A stretch of 28,048 nt of DNA from a virus, in the IMG/VR virus record IMGVR_UViG_3300037493_005126, positions 1-28,048 of that record; one strand, given 5' to 3'. Positions within the stretch are counted from its first letter, which is position 1. Each line of letters begins with the position of its first letter. Both the position numbers and the translations under genes were made by a program. Below the pieces are notes generated by a model. The model did no database searches. It was not told the DNA's origin and saw only the letters and a program-made list of their open reading frames with translations. Positions 1,988-28,048 of the stretch are shown piece after piece.

Positions 1988-2536
1988 TTATTTTGCTTTA
2001 ATTTTATTTGGTTTTACTTTAAATATTGCTGCTGATGTTTTTCCAACTTCATCATTAATGTTAATAAACAAACTATCAATGATTTCTTGAATTCCACTTT
2101 CTACATTATTCTTATAAAGTTCATCAATTTGTTGAAAACTCTTTTTTAATATATTTCTTGGTCTAATGCCAATTCTAAAAATACTTCTTTGAATAACATG
2201 TGCAAGTTGATTTAATGTCATTGATTTAAATTGACCTTTTGCATTTCTTGGTCTAATCTTTTTTCTTTTAATCCATTTCAAAATAATCTGAACAGGTATC
2301 TTTCTTGAACCTGCTCTTCTACCACCATCTAAATATTTTAAATAATCTAATGACTCAATTTTTATTGTTGGTGTTGAATCATAAACAACCATAACTGAAT
2401 TATATAATGTTGATGTTTTATCTAATCCTTTAAATCTTTTTCCTGATGCTGAAATATATGGTTGTTCTAATTGAAATAAAATAACATTCAATAAGTCAGT
2501 TGCAAAGTCTTTAACAATTTCATCAAGATTAACCAT
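1988..2536 (-). CDS. Tail-completion / HK97 gp10-like protein
   Basis: This 182-residue basic protein sits between terminase and large tail genes. Its middle has a YLDGGRRAG stretch, then PVQIILKWIKRKKI and a basic NAKGQFKS segment, then a QRSIFRIGIRPRN motif. That series (aromatic-LDGGRR, ILKWI, QRSI-GI-PRNF) is characteristic of gp10-like minor virion or tail-completion proteins of Bacteroidota phages, which act at the head-tail junction or the tail terminus. The start codon overlaps the end of the preceding gene by 8 nt, so the two are probably translationally coupled. The function is inferred from motif memory and position, not from a search. Confidence 0.7.
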   Translation of the reverse strand: MVNLDEIVKDFATDLLNVILFQLEQPYISASGKRFKGLDKTSTLYNSVMVVYDSTPTIKIESLDYLKYLDGGRRAGSRKIPVQIILKWIKRKKIRPRNAKGQFKSMTLNQLAHVIQRSIFRIGIRPRNILKKSFQQIDELYKNNVESGIQEIIDSLFININDEVGKTSAAIFKVKPNKIKAK

Positions 2537-2987
2537 ATACTAAACATCTATTTTCACCACTTGCAGTATTAACTGTTAATTCAACTCTCCAACCTTGTGA
2601 GTTATCTTGCTCATAATCTAACAATGATAAATAACTTACATCTGTAATGATACCTTGATATAATGTTAGTATCTGTTGTCTTAAATATTTTACAATGTTT
2701 CTAGCTTCAGCTAACATTGAATCTCTCAATGTGTCTTTTGCATCTTTAGTTGAATCCATATTGAGTTGGTCTAATACTAATATGGCAATATTCCAATTCT
2801 CTTGGTTTGGTTGATTGTTATTAACAATGACACTAATCAAATAATCTTCCTCTAAAAAAAGCAATGGATAAATCTCATCACCTTCATTTGGATATTCAAA
2901 TGATTTACCACTTTGAAATGTATTTATTGTAGATGCTGTGAATGTTGGTATATCATTCAATATATCTTTTAAGTTTTGAATTGTCAT
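2529..2987 (-). CDS. Putative tail terminator / head-tail joining protein
   Basis: The 152-residue acidic protein has no membrane segment. Its central part (ENWNIAILVLDQLNMDS, then a long helix) and its end (GWRVELTVNTASGENRC) match the general pattern of small neck or tail-terminator proteins that follow the gp10-like gene in many siphoviruses; here it precedes it. An ACTTTATA box lies 5 nt upstream of the ATG, inside the 4-nt gap and the stop codon of the chaperone-like gene. Its last 8 nt overlap the next gene. The assignment rests on position and size more than on sequence. Confidence 0.55.
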   Translation of the reverse strand: MTIQNLKDILNDIPTFTASTINTFQSGKSFEYPNEGDEIYPLLFLEEDYLISVIVNNNQPNQENWNIAILVLDQLNMDSTKDAKDTLRDSMLAEARNIVKYLRQQILTLYQGIITDVSYLSLLDYEQDNSQGWRVELTVNTASGENRCLVYG

Positions 2988-2991
2988 ATTA

Positions 2992-3771
2992 TTATAAAGT
3001 TTTATTTAGATTTGTATTTTGTTTCAATCGCAGTTTGGATTTTACTTTCAATGATACTTCTTTCATTTTTAATTGACATGGTAAATAAACATGTATATAA
3101 GTCCATCCTATTGACATCACTAATCCTAAGAACATCTCCATTAGCAAGGTCATATACCATGCTTGACCATCCCCATTTTTGATTGTGGGATTCCCAATAT
3201 CCTGACCATTCTGATTTTGGGAACTTAGGATTGAATACACTTGGGAAAGTTCTTTCAGTCTGTCCTTTTTTTTTAAAAAATATGATGTGTATCCAAACAC
3301 AATGTCAACAGTTAGATTCTCAATGATAGAAACTCTCTCAGACAGTTCAATTGATGTTGATGGGTATGAATGGTCAACTCCTTTAATTGAAGAGCATAGT
3401 GCCATTATATACTTGGTCATTGTCCAATGATTGTTTTGATTCTCTGTTATATAATAATCTAAATCTACCCATTGTCCAAATGTGAGTTCATTCATTTCTT
3501 TAATTAATTTATAATTAATATTATTGACATTGAATTCAAATACATCTTGTTCAATGTTCTGTGGACTTAATTCATAAAACCATTTTAATTCATCAATGAG
3601 TTTAGTAACAGTCTTAACATCTTTTGAATAATATAATTCATTGTAATCCATATTGCATAGAATAGCAATTTCTTTTAATCTTCTTTCTTGCAATGTTGCA
3701 TTCTCATCAATGTCTGAAATTAATTCTAATTGTTTTAAGTTAATCTCTTTTAATTCTTTTGGTACTTTCAT
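2992..3771 (-). CDS. Tail-assembly-chaperone-like protein, zero-frame product (259 aa)
   Basis: Residues 1-169 are acidic and mostly helical, with a FGQWVDLDYYI motif near 123-133 and a KYIMALCSS stretch; this resembles the N-terminal domain of Bacteroidota-phage tail assembly chaperones. At codons 167-169 the gene reads A AAA AAG, the most efficient bacterial -1 slippery heptamer. Without slippage, translation continues 90 codons to a stop at 2994-2992. That zero-frame tail has an unusual mixture of polar, hydrophobic and basic residues. The -1 frame gives the more family-like C-terminus (see the separate entry). The gene starts within an ATGA overlap with the GNAT gene and lies far upstream of the tape measure in transcription order, as tail chaperones do. 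A homopolymer sequencing error is an alternative to recoding. Confidence 0.65.
   Translation of the reverse strand: MKVPKELKEINLKQLELISDIDENATLQERRLKEIAILCNMDYNELYYSKDVKTVTKLIDELKWFYELSPQNIEQDVFEFNVNNINYKLIKEMNELTFGQWVDLDYYITENQNNHWTMTKYIMALCSSIKGVDHSYPSTSIELSERVSIIENLTVDIVFGYTSYFLKKKDRLKELSQVYSILSSQNQNGQDIGNPTIKNGDGQAWYMTLLMEMFLGLVMSIGWTYIHVYLPCQLKMKEVSLKVKSKLRLKQNTNLNKTL
2993..3000 (-). promoter_or_regulatory. ACTTTATA box, 5 nt before the ATG at 2987
   Basis: The context is ACTTTATAATAATATG. The box overlaps the stop codon of the chaperone-like gene's zero frame. Confidence 0.7.
3002..3771 (-). CDS. Tail-assembly-chaperone-like protein, predicted -1 frameshift product (256 aa)
   Basis: This is the product expected if ribosomes slip -1 on the heptamer at 3271-3265: 169 zero-frame residues, then 87 residues read in the -1 frame from the GGA codon at 3265 to a TAA at 3004-3002. 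The -1 extension contains QKWGWSSMVYDLANGDVLRI, followed by a hydrophobic and charged helix rich in Glu and Lys. This W-G-W, Y-D-L-A, G-D pattern is the C-terminal hallmark I know from Bacteroidota-phage tail proteins of this type, so I consider it the functional C-terminus. The -1 frame has a TGA about 33 nt upstream of the heptamer, so the switch must occur in a short window that contains the A9 run. Known tail chaperones (lambda G/GT) use the same mechanism. Confidence 0.6.
3265..3274 (-). promoter_or_regulatory. A AAA AAG slippery site for -1 frameshifting
   Basis: The minus strand reads T6-A9-GG here. In the zero frame the codons are TTA AAA AAA AAG GAC, so A AAA AAG is in the exact X XXY YYZ register. 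The adjacent downstream sequence has only a weak 4-bp hairpin (GAAA/TTTC). A 7-bp perfect stem (TTCCCAA/TTGGGAA, 3223-3217 with 3197-3191) lies about 40 nt further down, far for a classical stimulator. The long A run could also cause transcriptional slippage. Confidence 0.6.
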
Positions 3772-4109
3772 ATTTTATTTAATTTAAACCATTGGTAATT
3801 TATTTTATTAATTGTTTTTTTTGAATGATATTTGAAATTATATTTCTTATATGTTTCTTTTATAAAATTATCTTTTCTTACTAATAAGTATATATCTTTT
3901 TTTTCATCTTTTAAATTATCTAACATTGTTTCAAATAATAGTTTAAAATAATTTTGTCTTCTATATTCTTCATAAATATAAATACCTGAAATATTAATCC
4001 AACTATCATAATATTCTATTTTTCCTGAAGCTATTATATCTTTATCTATTAAATAATAACATAGACAATAATAATCATCCCATATTTGTTTTTTAATTAT
4101 TATATCCAT
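3768..4109 (-). CDS. GNAT-family N-acetyltransferase-like protein
   Basis: The 113-residue protein has the order of elements of a small GNAT enzyme: strands near 31-46, then IYEEYRRQNYFKLLFETML at about 45-63 (the R/Q-x-x-G/N-x acetyl-CoA loop followed by helix 3; here R50-R51-Q52-N53-Y54), then a strand and an ETYKKYNFKY segment typical of the motif-B end. It lacks the usual N-terminal strands in full, so it is a short version. It is inserted between TerL (1-nt gap) and the chaperone-like gene (ATGA overlap), within the morphogenesis operon. The substrate is unknown; it could modify a virion, host or defence protein. No membrane or secretion signal is seen. Confidence 0.65.
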   Translation of the reverse strand: MDIIIKKQIWDDYYCLCYYLIDKDIIASGKIEYYDSWINISGIYIYEEYRRQNYFKLLFETMLDNLKDEKKDIYLLVRKDNFIKETYKKYNFKYHSKKTINKINYQWFKLNKI

Positions 4110-4110
4110 T

Positions 4111-5265
4111 TTAGTATATTTTCATTTTTACAGGTGCATTCTTTTTAAATGAATGTAAGGCATATCGCATTGCATCCATACCATCATCATTTAATTTTAT
4201 TGGTTCATCACTTATCTCATTTTGTTTTTCTTTCCAAGAATATAATTTATATTCATTTAATAAATTTATTGAGGATGGTGTAATATATATCTTCTTTGAT
4301 TTAAGTGTGTTTATTCCATCACTAACATCTTTATTGGCTTTGTATGTTCGGTATTTCCATCTTGATAATTCTTGCATTATCTCAGGTCTTGCATAATCAC
4401 AATAAATTCTAACATCCTTTGCAACTTGTTTCTTTTCCATTAATTGAACTAAATCAGTTGAAGTTAAAAATGATTCATATATAATCTCATCAAAGTAATA
4501 TTCACCATCATATTCATACATTGCCACCAATGCTGTTGGGTGATTATATCCAAAGTCAATGCCATAACAAACTAAACTACCTTTAACATTACTTATTTGA
4601 AAATGTGTATAAACTCTTTTATGTGTTATTGGGAATTCACCAAGACAATATATTCTATAATAGTTATCATCAACATTAATCAATGCTTCAATTTCTTTTA
4701 TCTGTTCTCTATTTAAAAATGTATTATCCTTATATGTTGATTTTATTAATATTGTTTTTTCAGCTTCTCTAATCATTAAATCATTTATCCATGATTCTTC
4801 ACTTGGGTTAAAGTCAATGATAACTTTTTTCATTGTTCTTATGTTCAATTGAATGAATGCTTCAAATGGAATTTCATTGGCTTCATTGATAAATATTACA
4901 TCATGCTTTTTACCTCTTAGCTTTTGTGGTTCATCAGTTGAAATAAAACTTATTCTTGAACCTGTTGGGAATCTATAAACATTGTCAGTCTTATTGTGAT
5001 TGTTTTCATCATATAGTTTTAAATCATTCATTACTTCAATAAAGTCTTTTAAAACACTTCCTCTAATGGTTGGCAATGATTGTCTAATAACTGATACATT
5101 CTTATTGGTATTGGTTAAACAATAATAAATTAATAATTGAACAATGGAATATGTTTTACTTGACCTTGTGCCACCTTGATTAATAATAAAGCGAATATCA
5201 TTGTCATTGAAAGCATCAAGATTTTTTGTAAAAATATTTGTATGTCTAATTTCTAATTCTGTCAT
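4111..5265 (-). CDS. terL: Terminase large subunit
   Basis: This DNA-packaging motor (384 aa) has an ATPase and a nuclease domain. Walker A is GGTRSSKT at residues 31-38, the form used by PBSX-type (Terminase_3) large subunits. Walker B is VIFINE at 123-128, with E128 the catalytic carboxylate. The nuclease domain starts at YGIDFGYNHPTAL (first Asp), continues with IYCDYARPE (second Asp) and ends at DDGMDAMRYAL (third acidic cluster), as expected for an RNase H-like nuclease. The length is typical, slightly short. It follows TerS with a 6-nt gap. By packaging-family analogy the phage may use headful packaging and a circularly permuted genome, but that is inference. Confidence 0.95.
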   Translation of the reverse strand: MTELEIRHTNIFTKNLDAFNDNDIRFIINQGGTRSSKTYSIVQLLIYYCLTNTNKNVSVIRQSLPTIRGSVLKDFIEVMNDLKLYDENNHNKTDNVYRFPTGSRISFISTDEPQKLRGKKHDVIFINEANEIPFEAFIQLNIRTMKKVIIDFNPSEESWINDLMIREAEKTILIKSTYKDNTFLNREQIKEIEALINVDDNYYRIYCLGEFPITHKRVYTHFQISNVKGSLVCYGIDFGYNHPTALVAMYEYDGEYYFDEIIYESFLTSTDLVQLMEKKQVAKDVRIYCDYARPEIMQELSRWKYRTYKANKDVSDGINTLKSKKIYITPSSINLLNEYKLYSWKEKQNEISDEPIKLNDDGMDAMRYALHSFKKNAPVKMKIY

Positions 5266-18081: not shown

Positions 18082-18585
18082 TTAAGGTGCTAAAGGTGGA
18101 GTAACTCCTGTTCCAAGAATCAATTCCAATTTCTTACCTACACCTGTCAATGTTACTGTGAATCCTGCAACATCACCTGCTGCTGCTCCTGTGTTGAAAC
18201 TCAATACAGTTGCTTCAAGACCACCATCAGAACCAAACACTACACTTGCACCACCTTTAGTCTCAACAATAACTGTAACTTTTGCCAATCCAAGATTTTC
18301 AAGAGTTTCAATAGCTGCTGCTGAAGTACTATCATTTGAGAAGTTTACAGTTTGAAGGAAATACCTTCTACCATTTGCAACCTGCATCTCTGAAGCTGCT
18401 GAAGCTGTTTCAGGGTTAGTATCAAATACATAGAATCCTGAAGCACCTGAAGTAATACCTGTTACAGTACTTCCACTATCAACACCATAAGTGATATCTG
18501 CAAAATTTGCAACATACACCTTGCTAATACCTGCTAAGAAGTATTCACATTCTCTAACTAAACCTGCATCAATTAAACATGCCAT
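18082..18585 (-). CDS. Putative major tail tube protein
   Basis: The 167-residue protein starts MACLIDAG at 18585; an upstream ATG at 18633 would add a lysine-rich stretch overlapping the hairpin after the capsid gene and is unlikely. The sequence begins with Cys and ECEYFLAGISKVYVANFADI, which I know from small structural proteins next to capsid genes in Bacteroidota phages, then Ala/Gly/Thr-rich beta-like sequence, fitting a tail tube protein (about 150-200 aa). Codon use is less AT-rich than in its two relatives. It is bracketed by a hairpin behind the capsid gene and a strong terminator after its own stop, so capsid and tube form a high-expression cassette. Confidence 0.65.
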   Translation of the reverse strand: MACLIDAGLVRECEYFLAGISKVYVANFADITYGVDSGSTVTGITSGASGFYVFDTNPETASAASEMQVANGRRYFLQTVNFSNDSTSAAAIETLENLGLAKVTVIVETKGGASVVFGSDGGLEATVLSFNTGAAAGDVAGFTVTLTGVGKKLELILGTGVTPPLAP

Positions 18586-18621
18586 AATTTTATATTTTTT
18601 TTTTAATTTTTTATTATTAAT

Positions 18622-18645
18622 GGGGAGAACCATTACATTCTCCCC
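18622..18645 (-). repeat. GC-rich hairpin after the capsid gene
   Basis: GGGGAGAA (18622-18629) pairs with TTCTCCCC (18638-18645) over 8 bp with an 8-nt loop. There is no proper T run on the minus strand (ATTAATAATAAAA follows), so it may be a leaky terminator or a 3' stabiliser between capsid and tube mRNAs. Confidence 0.65.
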
Positions 18646-20134: not shown

Positions 20135-20761
20135 TTAAAGATTTATTCCTCTTATTGATAGATTTCTCAATTTATCAATAACTGCTTTATTATTATCATA
20201 GTGTGTATCTATATTTAGTGCAGCAATCTTATAAACTTTTCTATTATTTGAACCTGTTGCAAATACTCTATCACTTGGAATACCAAGTTTTTTTGCCAAT
20301 GGTAACATAGTTATTTTACTTTGTCTTGCTGATACAATATAAACATCATCACCTCTTGCAATTCTTTCTCTTGCAATCTGTTGAATTCTTGGATTTGTCA
20401 ATGTACCATCAAAATCAAAACTAATTTTTCTGAATTTCTCCATATCAAATAGATTTAATTCTTTTAATTTTGATTCTGCCCATCTTTTACCTGCTAAACC
20501 ACCCCATAATAAATAACTGATTGTACCACATGCTTCAGTATCATCAGGATTATAATAAACTTCTGCTCTTGATAGATAAGAATACATTCTTTTAATAGTT
20601 TGAACAGATATTTTTTCTTTATTAGCTAATTGTTGTCCTCTAACTTTACCAACTAAAGTAGCACAACCATTTCTTACTTTAGAATTAAGTTCAATACCTC
20701 TCTTAGCATTGTTACTTACTGCATCAGGATAATCATTATATGTTTCAAATTTATCTTTCAT
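20135..20761 (-). CDS. Capsid-module protein fused to a HAD-like domain
   Basis: Two parts are visible in 208 residues. Residues 1-103 form a helical module (FETYNDYPDAVSNNAKRGIEL, GCATLVGKVRGQQLANKEKIS, YLLWGGLAGKRWAESKL) that is common in Bacteroidota-phage capsid gene clusters next to the protease and is of unclear function. Residues 104-208 are HAD-superfamily-like: DFDGT at 116-120 with the two acidic residues of motif I, then VYIVSARQSK (motif II with Ser) and LGIPSDRVFATGSNNRKVYKI, THYDNN (acidic end). I chose the ATG at 20761 (11-nt overlap with the protease gene); an ATG at 20809 would overlap by 59 nt. The substrate of the HAD part is unknown. Confidence 0.75.
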   Translation of the reverse strand: MKDKFETYNDYPDAVSNNAKRGIELNSKVRNGCATLVGKVRGQQLANKEKISVQTIKRMYSYLSRAEVYYNPDDTEACGTISYLLWGGLAGKRWAESKLKELNLFDMEKFRKISFDFDGTLTNPRIQQIARERIARGDDVYIVSARQSKITMLPLAKKLGIPSDRVFATGSNNRKVYKIAALNIDTHYDNNKAVIDKLRNLSIRGINL

Positions 20762-22292
20762 CCCATTTTGTATGACAAATTGCACTTGATTGTTCAATAC
20801 TATATCCATTTTTAATTTCAGTTGCTATACATCTACCAATGAATTCACTATGAATTTCACCTTCTCTAGGTTCAACAACAAATTCTTCTTCTTGACCTAA
20901 ATAAGATTCAATAATTTGAATATGTCTATCAATAAATGATGAATCTAAAACAATATTTATACTTTGTGAAATTTGATTCATTAAATCTTTAAAATCATCA
21001 GCCAATATAATTGCTTCATTTAAACTATTCATTGATATTACTTTATTTTCTATTGCTTCATTTTCAATGGATAAAATTGCATCAAGTTGCAATGCTGCAC
21101 TTCTTATCATTCCTTTATCATCAACACTAATATCCATTGAATTAAATGAATTAAATACTTCTATTGCTTCAGGTGCTAATTCAAAATATTTACCTTCATA
21201 TCCAAAAATATTAATTCCATCCTCACTATAAGCTGATAAAATTAAAGGCTTTTTATCAAATATATCCAATAGTTGTGCTTTTAAAAAACCTCTATTTGGT
21301 TGGTCAAACATTGGAGTACCTGCTTTACCTATTGCAGGTCCTTTTGATTGTTGTTTATCAAAGGTTGCGAATATCTTTTGCCAATAATGTTTGCAATTTG
21401 GACCACCTTTATAAAACCATATGTCATAAGTAGAAGTGCCATTAGGACCAAAACCTTCATTGACCGCCAAATCATTTGCACCTTTAACTTCTTCATAAGT
21501 ATATAATCTTTTTAATCCTAACATTTGTTTACAAAAATCTCTTTCAGCACTAGGACCAACATACTTATAAAATGTTCTACCTTTTTTACCTTCTTTTGGT
21601 AAGATATCACCTTCAGCATATGGAATTAAACTTGCTTGTGCAAACTCTTCTTGAAATTGTTGTTCAGTTATTCCACAATTAGAAAAATAATCAATTAAAG
21701 TATTTTCATAATTCTTTTTCTTTTTTTTACTGAATATAGTTAATAATTTATTTGTGATTGTTACTTCTTGTTTTTCAAACTTTTCAGTATTATAAGAGAT
21801 ATAACCTTCAATTGATAAACCATTTATTTTTCCTTCTTTGATTTTTGACCAAACTTCTTTATTATCAACCTTATATTTTGCGAACCAAGTTCCAATAGGC
21901 AAATCATTAAAACCATAGTTATTAGACTTATCATCTTTTGATTCTTTAATCCAACTTTCAAGCATTATTATTCCATCAATACTATCTTTATGATTTAAAT
22001 TTGTTTTATTAAAGTTATTATCTTTAGCATATTGATATCTTATCTTTTCAATTGTATCTTTTGAAAACATTGTATAAAAGTTTCCAACTTTATCATTATA
22101 TCTAAGTATAAGTTTATCAGGTATCATAACAGGACTAACAATAATTTGTTGGTCTTCATTAAAATAATTAACTATTTTTTCTTCTTCAGAGAATGCAACA
22201 AACTCTCTTTCAATTGCAGGTCTATCAACTAATGATATTAATTGAATTTCATCACCTTCATTGAACAATGCTTCATAAATTGGTATATTCAT
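20751..22292 (-). CDS. XkdF-like capsid maturation protease fused to head-associated domains
   Basis: The 513 residues start at 22292 (MNIPIYEAL), because an ACTTTATA box is 5 nt upstream; an ATG at 22328 would lie within the tape-measure gene's end. Residues about 15-170 match the XkdF serine protease: ISLVDRPAIEREF, IIVSPVMIPDKLILR, TNLNH (His101), MLESWI, KSNNYGF, GTWFAKYKVDNKEVW, and LSIEG (Ser160, probable nucleophile). Residues about 230-340 carry a second module (SAERDFCKQMLGLKRLYTYEEV, STYDIWFYKGGPNCKHYW) with a head-morphogenesis type. The C-terminus ends EFIGRCIATEIKNGYSIEQSSAICHTKW, a phage helix-cysteine motif. It precedes scaffold and capsid genes. Confidence 0.8.
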   Translation of the reverse strand: MNIPIYEALFNEGDEIQLISLVDRPAIEREFVAFSEEEKIVNYFNEDQQIIVSPVMIPDKLILRYNDKVGNFYTMFSKDTIEKIRYQYAKDNNFNKTNLNHKDSIDGIIMLESWIKESKDDKSNNYGFNDLPIGTWFAKYKVDNKEVWSKIKEGKINGLSIEGYISYNTEKFEKQEVTITNKLLTIFSKKKKKNYENTLIDYFSNCGITEQQFQEEFAQASLIPYAEGDILPKEGKKGRTFYKYVGPSAERDFCKQMLGLKRLYTYEEVKGANDLAVNEGFGPNGTSTYDIWFYKGGPNCKHYWQKIFATFDKQQSKGPAIGKAGTPMFDQPNRGFLKAQLLDIFDKKPLILSAYSEDGINIFGYEGKYFELAPEAIEVFNSFNSMDISVDDKGMIRSAALQLDAILSIENEAIENKVISMNSLNEAIILADDFKDLMNQISQSINIVLDSSFIDRHIQIIESYLGQEEEFVVEPREGEIHSEFIGRCIATEIKNGYSIEQSSAICHTKWDER

Positions 22293-22297
22293 GTTTA

Positions 22298-22305
22298 TAT
22301 AAAGT
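22298..22305 (-). promoter_or_regulatory. ACTTTATA box, 5 nt before the protease ATG
   Basis: The context is ACTTTATATAAACATG. It supports the start at 22292 over the longer frame start at 22328. Confidence 0.7.
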
Positions 22306-25300
22306 TTAAAATCTTGCTCTATTTTCAATTACATTTACTCTTGACTGACCATCATTAATATCAGTTACTGCAACAAATACAGGTTTATTTAAATTTGCTC
22401 TTAAAAGTAAACTCATTTCTTGATTTGCATCAACATTTATTTGTCTTAATGGTACAGGTGAACCACCTTCAGCAAAACCTCTCTTTCTTGCAGCTTCCAT
22501 ATCATGAACCATTGAACCATATTTAGCTGATTCAACCATCCATCTTGGTACAACATATTCATTAGAATGTAACATATAAGTACCAACAGCATCTTCACCT
22601 GTTCTATCTCTACCTTTACCTTTCATTGGTGTATAACCACCTTTTGCCATTGGTTCATAATCACTTGCAAAACCACCTTCAGCAGGACCAAGTGCTGCTC
22701 TGTTAGCTTCAGCATCTTTTACATTTTTCAATGCACTAGCAATACCAATAATATTAGCAGTTAAGGCAGCAGTTACAGCAATGATTGCAGCAACAGTTGC
22801 GATACCAAATGTAAAGTCTTGTTTAGCTGCTGATGCAGCAATACTTGCGATTGCAACACCTGTTTGAGCAATTGCTAATACTTGAGCAGCAACAGCAGCT
22901 TTTTGTTGAATAACAATTGAATCTAATGCTAATTTTTGATTATCTTTTTCAAGTTTTTGTTGTGCTTTAGCTGCATTTTCTTCTTGTCTCTGTAATGCTT
23001 TTTTCTCTTTAACTAAATCCTTTGTTCTTTTAACTTCAGCATCAAGTTGTTTTAATATTTCTTCTCTTTGACCACCTGTTGCAGTTTCAGCAGCAGCTTG
23101 AAGTTCATCAATATTTTGTTTTCTTTGATTAATTATTTCATCAATAAAACCAATTTGTTCTTGAATGGCTGCAATTTGTTCAGTTAAATTATCAATTAAA
23201 ATTTGATTAGCTTGAATTTGACTATCAATAGCTTGTGTTTGTGCTTGAAATACAGCATTAAAAACTTGTAAACTAGAATCAGCAATACTTCCAAAAGATT
23301 GAGCAATTAAATTAATTCTTGCTTCTGTTAAATCATCTATTTGTTTTACTGTATTTTGATTAAGTTCTTCTTGTGATTTATTTCTATTAATAATTGCAAT
23401 TTGATATGCAGCATCAGTTTCTTTTAAACCTTTTGTTTCAGTTTTAAATTTATCTTCAATATTTTTTAATTCAAGTGCATTAATTTTATTTATTGCATCA
23501 ACTCTTGCACTAAATGGTGCTTTAGTATTAGCAGCAGTATTTTGTAAATTTCTAATTTCTTCAGCTTTAATTAATAATGCTAATTCAGCTTGTAAATTCT
23601 TTTTTGTTTCTTGTGATAATTGATTTCTTGTAGCAATACTTTGATTTATTTTATCTAATTCATCTTGTGTTGCTTTCAATAAATCATTTTCTTCCTTTGT
23701 TAAAGTAGTTGTTTTAGTTAATTGTTGTAATCTTTGTTCAATAACTACTTTTTGTTTATTTTCAATTTTATTTAATAAATCATTTTGAGCAGTTAATGTT
23801 AATTCACTAAATTTTTGAGCAGTATTTATTTCAGGAAAAATCTTTTTTAAATTATTTAATTCATCTTCTGTTAAAGCAACATTATCTTTGTATCTATTAA
23901 TTGATTCAATAGCTTTATCAAAATTCAATGTTCTTTGATAAATATCTGTTTGAGCATTTGTTTTAATTATTTCTCTTTGAGTACTTGTAATTTCAGCATT
24001 AATGCTTCTATATGTATCTCTAATTTTTAATAATTGCTCTGCCCTTTTTTCATTAAGAATTTTTTCTTGTTTAGCAGAATCTTCTAAAATTTTATCATTT
24101 TCAGATGGGTTTGCAAGCAATGCATTTTTTGTTCTTTCAAAAAGTAATGCCTTTTCAGCATTTATTCTTAATTCAACATCCTTTTGTTCTGCATCTCTTT
24201 GTTTAACTAATTCTTTTCTATATACTTCAAGAAGTTTTAAACCATCTTTGGTTTTATCAAATAAGTTTTGTCCTTGAGTTTTAATAATTTCATTTAAAAA
24301 TTTATCTGAAAAAAATTCTCTTAGTTTTGGGTCTTGAATATTATCTCTTAAATTTTTAATATCATCAACAAGAACTCTTATACCATTTGATTTAAATCTT
24401 TTTGGGTCAGTTAATTGAACTGTTGCATTTAATCTATCAACAAGTAATTTAAAATCTTGTAAATCTGCTCTTCTAAAATCTGCTCTTAATTTTGCTGCAT
24501 CTAAATCCCTTTGTTTAATTTCAAATTCTTTTTTAGCAATATCATCTAAAAGTTTAAATCTTTGATTTAATTGGTCATTTAAATCTCTTTGTAAAACAAT
24601 AATACCATCAATAATTTTTTTCTTATCTTCTTCAGAAAGATTTAATAATTGACTTGTTTTAAAACTTTTAACTAATTGGTCATTAACATTTTTATATAAT
24701 ACAATTTGTGTTTCAATTGCTGCATTTGAATTTTTAATGAAATCATTTATGTCAGCATAATTATCTTTAAATGCTTGTAAAAATGTTGTGTCAGTACCTG
24801 CTTGTTTTTGTTTTTTAATTATATCTTCAAATAAAAGAGTAATTGATTCACCTTCTAATTCAATTATATCAGCTATAGCCTGTGTTGATAATTCAGCTTG
24901 TTTTTCTAAATTACTTAAAGTTGATTCAAAACCTAATGTTGCTTGTTTTTGTAAGTCTTCAATTTTTTTATTTGAATCTTCTAAAATCTTTTTACTTTTA
25001 TTGGCAATCTCATCAAATGTATCTGTAATTCTTGCTGTTGTTGCATTATCAATTAAACCACCTGTTACAAATGATGCAAAATCTCTAACAGCATCAAAAA
25101 ATGGTTGCCATGCTTTAAATATTTCTGCACCTGCTGCTTTAATTTCATCAAAATTTGCAATCAATGTACTAACCGCAACAACTAATATACCAATACCTGT
25201 AGCTATTAATGCACCTCTAACAGCTAATCCTGCACCTTTAGCTGATATACCCATTGCATTAAAACCTTTTGATAATGTATTTAATGTTGCTGCAACAATT

Positions 25301-25749
25301 TTATTCTTTGAACCAAATGCTTCAATGATACCTGTCAATGCTTGTTGACCTTGAATGATAGCACTAATCTGTGTTTCAAGTTTTTGAAGTTCTTGAGCAG
25401 TTTTACTATTCTCATCACCAAATGCTTGAACAGATACTGAAGCAAATGCGAATGCACCACCTACTGCTCCTACAATTCTACCAACACCTTCAAATTTTTC
25501 ACCTATTGTAAGGTCAGAAACTGATTCATCAATGACTTTTAATTGAGTATTAACATCTCTTAATGATGATTGTAATTCATCAAATGCTTCACTACCATAA
25601 TCAGCTTGTTCAAATGCTTGTTCAAGCAAATTTTGTTGTTCTTTTAAATCACCAACTGACCTAACATTAGTTTGAAGTATATCATTTAATTCAACTAATT
25701 GATTAATTCCATTAATCTTAATATTAAACTGTGTTGTAGTATTTGCCAT
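22306..25749 (-). CDS. Tail tape measure protein
   Basis: The longest gene (1147 aa) encodes a mostly helical protein rich in Gln, Lys, Glu, Ala and Leu. It has long heptad-like coiled coils (about 240-930) and hydrophobic segments near 90-108, 175-200 and 945-1000 (for example GALIATGIGILVVAVSTLIANF and FGIATVAAIIAVTAALTANIIGIASAL), which is the pattern of tape measure proteins. A C-terminal segment has GGYTPMKGKGRDR, VGTYMLHSNEYVVP and a FAEGG motif, as seen at the end of phage tape measure proteins. A rough rule of 1.5 angstrom per residue suggests a tail of around 150-170 nm, so a siphovirus-like phage. An ACTTTATA box lies 8 nt upstream. Confidence 0.9.
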   Translation of the reverse strand: MANTTTQFNIKINGINQLVELNDILQTNVRSVGDLKEQQNLLEQAFEQADYGSEAFDELQSSLRDVNTQLKVIDESVSDLTIGEKFEGVGRIVGAVGGAFAFASVSVQAFGDENSKTAQELQKLETQISAIIQGQQALTGIIEAFGSKNKIVAATLNTLSKGFNAMGISAKGAGLAVRGALIATGIGILVVAVSTLIANFDEIKAAGAEIFKAWQPFFDAVRDFASFVTGGLIDNATTARITDTFDEIANKSKKILEDSNKKIEDLQKQATLGFESTLSNLEKQAELSTQAIADIIELEGESITLLFEDIIKKQKQAGTDTTFLQAFKDNYADINDFIKNSNAAIETQIVLYKNVNDQLVKSFKTSQLLNLSEEDKKKIIDGIIVLQRDLNDQLNQRFKLLDDIAKKEFEIKQRDLDAAKLRADFRRADLQDFKLLVDRLNATVQLTDPKRFKSNGIRVLVDDIKNLRDNIQDPKLREFFSDKFLNEIIKTQGQNLFDKTKDGLKLLEVYRKELVKQRDAEQKDVELRINAEKALLFERTKNALLANPSENDKILEDSAKQEKILNEKRAEQLLKIRDTYRSINAEITSTQREIIKTNAQTDIYQRTLNFDKAIESINRYKDNVALTEDELNNLKKIFPEINTAQKFSELTLTAQNDLLNKIENKQKVVIEQRLQQLTKTTTLTKEENDLLKATQDELDKINQSIATRNQLSQETKKNLQAELALLIKAEEIRNLQNTAANTKAPFSARVDAINKINALELKNIEDKFKTETKGLKETDAAYQIAIINRNKSQEELNQNTVKQIDDLTEARINLIAQSFGSIADSSLQVFNAVFQAQTQAIDSQIQANQILIDNLTEQIAAIQEQIGFIDEIINQRKQNIDELQAAAETATGGQREEILKQLDAEVKRTKDLVKEKKALQRQEENAAKAQQKLEKDNQKLALDSIVIQQKAAVAAQVLAIAQTGVAIASIAASAAKQDFTFGIATVAAIIAVTAALTANIIGIASALKNVKDAEANRAALGPAEGGFASDYEPMAKGGYTPMKGKGRDRTGEDAVGTYMLHSNEYVVPRWMVESAKYGSMVHDMEAARKRGFAEGGSPVPLRQINVDANQEMSLLLRANLNKPVFVAVTDINDGQSRVNVIENRARF

Positions 25750-25765: not shown

Positions 25766-27933
25766 TATTGCCAATTACTCATAGTTATTTTTTTAATCAT
25801 TGATACATTTCCAATTTCTGTATTTGGATTATAATTTGAAATACCTAATAAAATATAAGTATCTGATAAATAAGTTATTTCATAAGGTATATTAAAATAT
25901 TGAATAAAATTTGGCAATGGTATATATGCTCTTCCTGATAATAATGAAGTTCTATTATTTACAAATCCTCTATATGCTGCATAATATTTATTGTAGATAT
26001 AATTCAAATCAAGGTCATCAGTAAATTCAGCAGTTTGAAATGCTAAATAAAAATAATCAGGTGGGTCTAACCATTTTGGAAACATTTGAATAAATGTTCC
26101 TCTATCTATCATTCCTGTATAACCGCTAATTTTATTTGTATCATAAATATATTCTAATAATCTTGGTGTATAATCAAAATCTCTATCGGTATTATATTGA
26201 CCAAGAAAGTCTTGAATCCACCATTGAAAACTTGTTAATGAAGGTGTGTTACCTGAATTGGTATCTTTAATTGATGTAAAAAATAAACCATTATATTCAG
26301 CCAAATCACCTTTAGCATATACTGTTACTGAATTCCAAGGTAAGTAATCAACTGTATCTGATAAATTTAATGATAATCTATCTAAATTGATTTGTTCTTG
26401 TGATGCTATTGATAATAAATCCCAAGGTCCATTGCCTGTATCATCACCAACTTCAGCATCTGATACAATAAATGTTCTTGTTTTAGTTGGTGAAAATATA
26501 AATTGAATTCTAACATCATTACCATCACCAAAATCAAATTCTTTATTAGTTAATAATGGGTCTTTTGGGTCATATGTATATGCAAGATTGATAGATGAAT
26601 TAACATACTTTGAATAATCAAAATCACTTACAGAATTAAGAATAAAATTTCTATCTGTTTGAACAAATTCATCCAATGTATATAAAAAAACAGTATTATT
26701 TCTTGGATTAAAATATGGATATAAGTTATATAAATTAATAAAATTCTTTAAATAATCTTTACATGAAACTTGAGGTAATGTTTTTTGATAATTTAAATCA
26801 ATGTCTTCATTTGGATAATAAATATTCATGTATGTTATATCATTGAAATCTTCAGTACCTACAAATATATAATCACCTGTTGTAACAGATATAGCCGAAA
26901 CAGTATAAGATGATACATTGTTATTTGATTTATGTATTAATGATAATGTGGTATAATCACTATCAGATTGACAAATAATAAATGTTGGATTTGATACATT
27001 TGTAACACCTGTCAATTCAATATTTAATTCACCTGAAAATCTAACCACATATCTATATCCATAATAAGTATGTGAACCTGATTCCAATGTTGGATTAAAA
27101 AAAGCATCAACAATAACATTGCTTTCATCTGAAGATTTAAAATAATCAATTTCAATTTCTGAATCTATAACTGTTGATGTTCCTAATGTACCCCAATTCC
27201 ATTTAAAATCTTTATTTGAACCTGCAATAATTTTATTCTTTATTTCATTATCAGTAAATAATGAACATTGAACATTATAACCCATATATGAAAATAAATT
27301 CCTAATTGAATTTGCATAAAAATTACATGGAAATAAATCATCTACTGTAAATATAGTACCTGCACTAAATGGTAAAAATGGTGAACCAATGTTTGCTTGA
27401 ATATTATTTCTTGCTTGACCATATTGAGCATAGTTATAATTACCATAAGTAATGAATGGTAAAACAAAATTAGAATTTACTGATGTTGCACTATTATTAT
27501 AATAAAGAATTGTCTCTTCAATTGAAGGTGTATTTACACTTACAACTTGTGGAAATGGAACTGTAAAGCCTGTTAAATCATTTATATTTCCACTAGGTAT
27601 ATCTTTGGTCCAATTCAATGTATCACTTACTATTTGGCCTCTAAAACCTGTTTGTGTAATTGAATCCAAATAAAATATACCTGATATTAAAGTTGATTGA
27701 TTAAAATCTAATACTGCATCAAATTCTTCAACCTTAAACTTATCAATAATAATATCATCATTAACAAAATTAAATATTTGATTATTATTTTTTGTGTATG
27801 GTATTGTTATAGTATATGTATAACCACCTGTTCTATCTAATGGATTTATAAAATCAATTGTTGAATATGATAATGTTGCATCAAAATTATCTTGTAAATC
27901 TACTACTTTATTATTTATTCTTAATGTATACAT
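25765..27933 (-). CDS. Large distal-tail/baseplate structural protein
   Basis: The 722-residue protein has an N-terminal segment YTLRINNKVVDLQDNFDATLSYSTIDFINPLDRTGGYTYTITIPYTKNN and then KVEEFDAVLDFNQSTLISGIFYLDSITQTGF. This beta-rich start, with PLxRxGxYxYTxxxPxT, is shared by large tail proteins of Bacteroidota phages and resembles distal tail proteins. The rest has many Tyr, Asn, Asp and Phe residues and several WW or aromatic clusters. It lies immediately downstream of the right-edge ORF (1-nt gap) and upstream of the tape measure. Adsorption or baseplate function is plausible; catalytic residues are not seen. It has no ACTTTATA box. Confidence 0.7.
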   Translation of the reverse strand: MYTLRINNKVVDLQDNFDATLSYSTIDFINPLDRTGGYTYTITIPYTKNNNQIFNFVNDDIIIDKFKVEEFDAVLDFNQSTLISGIFYLDSITQTGFRGQIVSDTLNWTKDIPSGNINDLTGFTVPFPQVVSVNTPSIEETILYYNNSATSVNSNFVLPFITYGNYNYAQYGQARNNIQANIGSPFLPFSAGTIFTVDDLFPCNFYANSIRNLFSYMGYNVQCSLFTDNEIKNKIIAGSNKDFKWNWGTLGTSTVIDSEIEIDYFKSSDESNVIVDAFFNPTLESGSHTYYGYRYVVRFSGELNIELTGVTNVSNPTFIICQSDSDYTTLSLIHKSNNNVSSYTVSAISVTTGDYIFVGTEDFNDITYMNIYYPNEDIDLNYQKTLPQVSCKDYLKNFINLYNLYPYFNPRNNTVFLYTLDEFVQTDRNFILNSVSDFDYSKYVNSSINLAYTYDPKDPLLTNKEFDFGDGNDVRIQFIFSPTKTRTFIVSDAEVGDDTGNGPWDLLSIASQEQINLDRLSLNLSDTVDYLPWNSVTVYAKGDLAEYNGLFFTSIKDTNSGNTPSLTSFQWWIQDFLGQYNTDRDFDYTPRLLEYIYDTNKISGYTGMIDRGTFIQMFPKWLDPPDYFYLAFQTAEFTDDLDLNYIYNKYYAAYRGFVNNRTSLLSGRAYIPLPNFIQYFNIPYEITYLSDTYILLGISNYNPNTEIGNVSMIKKITMSNWQ

Positions 27934-27934
27934 T

Positions 27935-28048
27935 TTAAACAGATTTTTGAGAGATGTCAGTTTGTGCTATCCTATATTCAATATTTAATTTATATTGATT
28001 TGTATTTTCAATTGAAATATAATCAATGCCTGTTATTATTACAGGTAT
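27935..28048 (-). CDS. C-terminal part of a tail protein, truncated by the right window edge
   Basis: An open minus-strand frame enters at base 28048 and ends with TAA at 27937-27935, giving 37 residues starting IPVIITGIDYISIENT and ending QTDISQKSV. It has no ATG of its own. The PVIIT...Y.LNIEY pattern is the usual C-terminal strand pair of the same tail protein family as the left-edge ORF, and the frame joins that ORF exactly if the ends are ligated. It would be the final 5% of a 699-residue protein. Confidence 0.75.
   Translation of the reverse strand: MPVIITGIDYISIENTNQYKLNIEYRIAQTDISQKSV

Follow-up and report, generated by a model that had tools for sequence, protein, structure and literature searches.

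A gene on the minus strand of a phage genome carries, behind a run of nine A residues, two long reading frames that are both conserved, and it is likely that a programmed −1 recoding event at this run yields a pair of proteins of the gpG/gpGT tail assembly chaperone type, with dual-coded C-termini, in tailed phages of Bacteroidota. The stretch analysed, here called the window, is the 28,048-nucleotide IMG/VR record IMGVR_UViG_3300037493_005126, whose source virus infects Bacteroidota bacteria. The slip site is conserved and, at the level of the family, both frames behind it are under selection. In the mechanism that we propose, standard decoding would produce 259 aa with an alternative tail at the C-terminus, while in a fraction of decoding events a net backward slip of one base on the A9 run would lead to a 256-aa protein that carries the conserved KWGW domain at its C-terminus, both C-termini being encoded by the same ~260 bases. 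By analogy with lambda gpG/gpGT, the frame-0 form would be the abundant product, coating the tape measure protein, while recruitment of the tail tube subunit would fall to the fused form, the minor product. The production of two proteins by one gene in this way is known in other phages; here, however, both endings are long, and at least 86 related virus contigs share the slip point.

The slip site and its two reading frames

The minus-strand letters from 3280 to 3265 read TTTTTTAAAAAAAAAG, that is, T6-A9-G (Table 1). Frame 0 crosses the site as TAT TTT TTA AAA AAA AAG GAC, which places A_AAA_AAG in the X_XXY_YYZ register of tandem slippage, and ends at the TAA at 2994-2992. The −1 frame has a stop about 33 nt upstream of the site and is then open to the TAA at 3004-3002; its C-part, joined to the shared N-part, forms the fused, 'gpGT-like' product of 256 aa. 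The run, the register, the coordinates, both product lengths and the closure of the −1 frame before the site had been described in an earlier note on this DNA, and re-reading of the minus strand confirmed all of them. C-terminal peptides are ELSQVYSILSSQNQNGQDIGNPTIK for frame 0 and TFPSVFNPK and WGWSSMVYDLANGDVLR for frame −1. From the slip site to the frame-0 stop there are ~270 nt in the window, so that the usual layout of chaperone genes, with the site near the stop, is absent; in the SEA-PHAGES training set this distance averages 26 nt (PMC10885494).

Table 1. Coordinates of the recoded gene, its slip site and neighbouring genes in the window
Feature	Position	Strand	Remarks
A9 homopolymer (slip site)	3266..3274	−	run lengths A9/A9/A9/A10 among clade members; in the wider family the homologous run is T9 or T7
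T6 run	3275-3280	−	directly 5′ of A9
G closing T6-A9-G	3265	−	
A_AAA_AAG heptamer	3265..3271	−	frame-0 register
Frame-0 ORF ('gpG-like')	2992..3771	−	259 aa; shared N-part plus 91-codon tail
Shared N-part	3269..3771	−	MKVPKELKEI ... TSYFLK; 78-83% identity in L001-L003
−1 C-part	3002..3271	−	89 aa, ...QKWGWSSMVYDLANGD...; 88-96% identity in L001-L003, 70% in L007
Dual-coded overlap	3005..3264	−	frames 0 and −1 both open; family-level selection on both frames
Terminase large subunit	4111..5265	−	upstream neighbour, synteny anchor; Pfam PF04466, PHROG 2
GNAT-like ORF	3768..4109	−	between terminase and recoded gene
152-aa gene	2529..2987	−	tail-completion-like position; starts 4 nt past the frame-0 stop
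182-aa gene	1988..2536	−	HK97 gp10-like by position and size only
1147-aa tape-measure-like protein	22306..25749	−	by length and coiled-coil look/composition only

Four further IMG/VR contigs span the site: L001 and L002, with an identical gene sequence, L003 and L007; a fifth close contig, L028, ends within the N-part. Relative to the window, the N-part is 83% identical in L001/L002 and 78% in L003, and the −1 C-part is 96% identical in L001/L002, 88% in L003 and 70% in L007. In these three distinct sequences the run is A9, A9 and A10, respectively, with the register unchanged; frame 0 is open to 259, 259 and 263 aa, and the conserved C-terminus requires the −1 frame in every case. The comparison of homologues that the earlier note had called for thus found the A run and the heptamer register kept and the conserved C-terminus in the −1 frame, and the recurrence of register, −1 C-terminus and open frame 0 in all close relatives strongly supports its frameshift reading. 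The T run, which offers T_TTT_TTA and T_TTA_AAA in register, was considered as the slip site of the window and rejected; since L007 has no T run but keeps A10, conservation lies in the A run. A scan of genome contigs with the window-clade alignment gave no match.

A conserved slip point in a wider family

Profile searches in Flavobacterium and wider Bacteroidota genomes found the N- and C-parts repeatedly in two frames, and both phages and prophages of Bacteroidota widely carry the split gene. The N-part of the window shares ~15-28% identity with the T9-family and single-frame relatives. At the homologous position a T9 run is present in L034, L042-L046, L070 and L078-L082 as well as in the isolated Nonlabens phages P12024S and P12024L, ~14 genome or isolate loci in all. 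The viral scan was carried out with the N-part alignment and with search patterns that did not include the slip site. It returned at least 544 relatives, of which the best 80 were kept, and in all 79 of these 80 contigs that reach the site there is a T9 run with TTT TTT in register and the C-part in −1. The Val codon preceding the site is GTT in 78 of 78, while GTT makes up only 48% of N-part Val codons. A sister group of seven loci (L083, L084, L170-L174) has a T7 run, with exactly CAT TTT TTT AC. The window clade has the A-run (A9) version of this conserved family site.

The frame-0 product measures 225-228 aa in most T9 contigs and 247 aa in five, its tail having 62 codons in most relatives, 84 in some and 91 in the window. 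The nearly equal length of the two products, pointed out earlier as unusual, is real in the window; rather than an oddity, it is the extreme of a family trait. In Nonlabens phage P12024S (L066 4001-4695) the two parts, gp38 and gp39, are annotated as separate hypothetical proteins without the T9 −1 frameshift that joins them; PHROG 32199 and PHROG 38404, to which they correspond, represent the two parts, N and C, of one split gene. We found no paper in the open-access literature that describes recoding in this split-gene family. Flavobacterium phage 6H (L089 10047-10927) also has a related gene split in two frames, with a stop between a T6 run and the C-part, and was left uncounted; a shift site and a sequence error are the alternatives there.

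More distant relatives encode the whole protein in one frame. L029 aligns with the fused product through the KWSW...GGD C-terminus (62 bits, E 1e-15), whereas its alignment with the frame-0 product stops at residue 169 (53 bits); the −1 C-part of the window is homologous to the C-terminus of L029. Other single-frame relatives are a ~245-aa group (L035, L048, L051 and phage Leef_1) and syntenic ~204-aa genes (L023, L024, L031, L047, L049, L050), the latter assigned by synteny and a similar ending, without significant alignment to the window protein. The fused (−1) protein is accordingly the complete, full-length ancestral form. Single-frame relatives had been named beforehand as evidence against recoding; they do exist (L029 and the L048 group), but what they show is the ancestry of the fused form.

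Ribosome or RNA polymerase

All branches have in common an X_XXY_YYZ-type heptamer within a single-base run. No stable 3′ stimulatory RNA structure was found (across 19 loci the fold z averages about −0.1), and inspection by eye of the upstream sequence revealed no purine-rich, Shine-Dalgarno-like 5′ element. We favour −1 slippage of the ribosome, with modest confidence. The strongest competitor, less probable, is slippage of the RNA polymerase, acting in place of the ribosome or contributing beside it, which would add a base to the 9-nt A/T run of the transcript, normal translation then giving the fused protein. Such runs are known to provoke efficient polymerase slippage in vivo (PMC5009743), the published thresholds being n > 7 for An and n > 8 for Tn (PMC3711429), and the A9/A10 and T9 runs reach the 8-9 nt that such slippage takes at a frame transition. 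The absence of RNA structure downstream of the site also fits the polymerase, as does the constancy of the run: it has 9 nt in nearly all branches although the flanking residues differ, so that [VL]FF[YWC] is written NTT TTT TTT T[AG]N (seven lineages) and [GDATY]FFL is written NNT TTT TTT TT[AG] (five lineages), with no run of 8 or 10, and the second Phe codon is never TTC in T9 loci. By a hand count, this either/or pattern has a chance of ~1/792 if the lineages are independent. The T7 sister group speaks for the ribosome, its seven loci being under the published threshold and having exactly the minimal ribosomal heptamer; moreover, the outer T's in the 79 close contigs are also dictated by Val/Ile and Tyr/Trp codons, and the literature describes the shift in known phage tail chaperones as ribosomal (PMC5009743). 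Thus, the T7 relatives favour the ribosome and the constant 9-nt runs favour the polymerase. A bolder and less probable reading would be a tail chaperone family of Bacteroidota viruses in which two functional, selected C-termini, written in overlapping frames, stand behind a fixed 9-nt homopolymer, the ratio of the two proteins being set by the polymerase instead of the ribosome, with the run changed from T9 to A9 in the window clade.

Gene neighbourhood and the proposed chaperone role

The window is a circularly permuted 28-kb genome, since the ORF that runs off base 1 (1-1986, minus) continues in frame from 28048 (27934-28048) and matches the end of an L002 ORF (7789-9957); it is probably complete. 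In this junction region the stop of the ORF falls just before the ORF starting at 27933. Following the circular map, the tape-measure-like gene is located downstream, four genes from the recoded gene. The order terminase - recoded gene - ~150-aa gene - ~180-aa gene is recurrent: the terminase gene order is shared with L023, L024, L031, L034 and P12024S, and a gene of similar size occupies the position of the 152-aa gene in L023, L034 and L042. In L001-L003 the GNAT-like ORF is missing and the terminase stop directly adjoins the start of the recoded gene; in L007 a sequence similar to this ORF is seen upstream of the recoded gene. Elsewhere in the genome, at 20135-22328, a head protease/portal-like fusion ORF overlaps an ORF in which the stretch KISFDFDGTLTNPRIQQIA recalls a HAD-like phosphatase, and an A10 run is located at 18595-18604 (minus) near the listed start of ORF 18082-18633, whose true start is probably the later MACLIDAG.

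The assignment as a chaperone comes from the architecture of the gene and its position. HMM searches, including Pfam and PHROG, gave no match to known chaperone families, and PDB and Foldseek-PDB searches retrieved no solved-structure or characterised relative. The frame-0 product and the single-frame L029 protein were folded (pLDDT about 60), and these low-confidence models match uncharacterised phage proteins and a P12024S protein; among the BFVD fold matches, one is annotated 'Tail assembly chaperone' (prob 0.97, E 0.037), a weak match from low-confidence models. Another early tail or connector protein, instead of a chaperone, is an unlikely identity for the recoded gene. Its lack of homology to described chaperones would agree with such a protein, and so would its location, beside terminase and, instead of adjoining the tape measure gene, four genes ahead of it. 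Against it stand the structural match, single and weak as it is, and the low-level −1 recoding that produces an unshifted/fused pair in a tail operon, which is the hallmark of gpG/gpGT chaperones (PMC5009743). Hence, the gene probably works like, and is, a tail assembly chaperone.

Selection on frame 0 past the site

Given the −1 protein and the codon usage of the phage, the chance that frame 0 stays open is P 0.001-0.005 for each of the four sequences of the clade; when the end of the tail is included, codon resampling gives P 0.0003-0.003 for the 91-codon opening in the window clade. The equivalent frame is open in none of 5,089 stretches of 89 codons from other window genes. The earlier remark that the zero frame stays open for an unexpected length is therefore supported (P about 0.003).

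Selection was analysed in 56 distinct T9-family overlaps with the 62-codon tail by counting substitution classes in disjoint pairs. For frame 0, changes altering both proteins were compared with those altering the −1 protein alone (NN/NS), and for frame −1 with those altering frame 0 alone (NN/SN). Omega was 0.39 for the frame-0 tail (bootstrap 0.28-0.54) and 0.31 for frame −1, while a fictitious frame in the single-coded N-part of the same contigs, used as control, gave 1.17 (0.92-1.48). At higher divergence the frame-0 contrast was smaller, 0.61 vs 0.80 for the control. The frame-0 tail of the T9 family is under purifying selection. Within the window clade the amino-acid test of frame 0 gave NN/NS 0.75-1.5, and codons whose amino acid is invariant are kept unchanged more frequently across the overlap than across the N-part (P 0.024). 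The claim that both frames are constrained accordingly stands at the family level, with a controlled selection test, and within the window clade only indirectly. That the frame-0 tail of the window contains a membrane helix under selection was considered and discarded; the hydrophobic stretch is already expected from the −1 coding.

It might be argued that the −1 shift is programmed but frame 0 is merely tolerated, as a by-product or for coupling to the translation of the next gene. The omega near 1 in the window clade agrees with this, as does the frame-0 stop just ahead (4 nt) of the start codon of the next gene, and codon choice alone yields a median tail of 40 codons. We regard it as improbable in view of the family-level purifying selection on frame-0 amino acids with a clean control, the constant product length (225-228 aa in most contigs) and the conserved tail start, FFYxLxNEL. 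That the true gene is a single continuous 256-aa frame broken by a homopolymer indel or a sequencing or assembly error is effectively ruled out: homopolymers are error-prone and distant relatives do have the protein in one frame, but the register is identical in contigs of several independent metagenomes, the split is found in a large family (79 + ~14 + 7 relatives, two of them isolated phages whose run consists of another base), and frame 0 is open past the site and selected there in the family.

Comparison with known systems and significance

With lambda gpG/gpGT, and its HK97 and SEA-PHAGES equivalents, the window gene shares the organization of a single gene in a tail operon whose −1 slippery site gives frame-0 and fused products, in lambda at a molar ratio of 30:1 (PMC5009743). 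It differs from these systems in having no detectable sequence homology with them, and in that both C-termini are long and dual-coded and the T9/A9 site is a pure 9-nt homopolymer. The A_AAA_AAG heptamer of the window clade is also that of Escherichia coli dnaX; here, no Shine-Dalgarno-like stimulator or 3′ stem-loop was found, and the shift would give an alternative C-terminal domain instead of early termination. In Thermus thermophilus dnaX and other cases of transcriptional slippage the 9-nt A/T homopolymer is, as here, the sole conserved cis element, whereas the T7 sister branch and the consistent −1 direction in the present family point to the ribosome.

PHROG 32199 and PHROG 38404, filed as two separate families without an assigned function and with the joining frameshift unannotated, are two orphan families explained as one recoded gene. 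A recoding site conserved in viruses of Bacteroidota by the hundreds is thereby added (the N-part relatives number at least 544, the site having been checked in the best 80), together with a clear case in which selection acts on both of the alternative C-termini that a chaperone-type gene encodes in shared DNA. Moreover, T7, T9, A9 and A10 at one homologous site constitute a natural series that bears on the choice between ribosome and polymerase.
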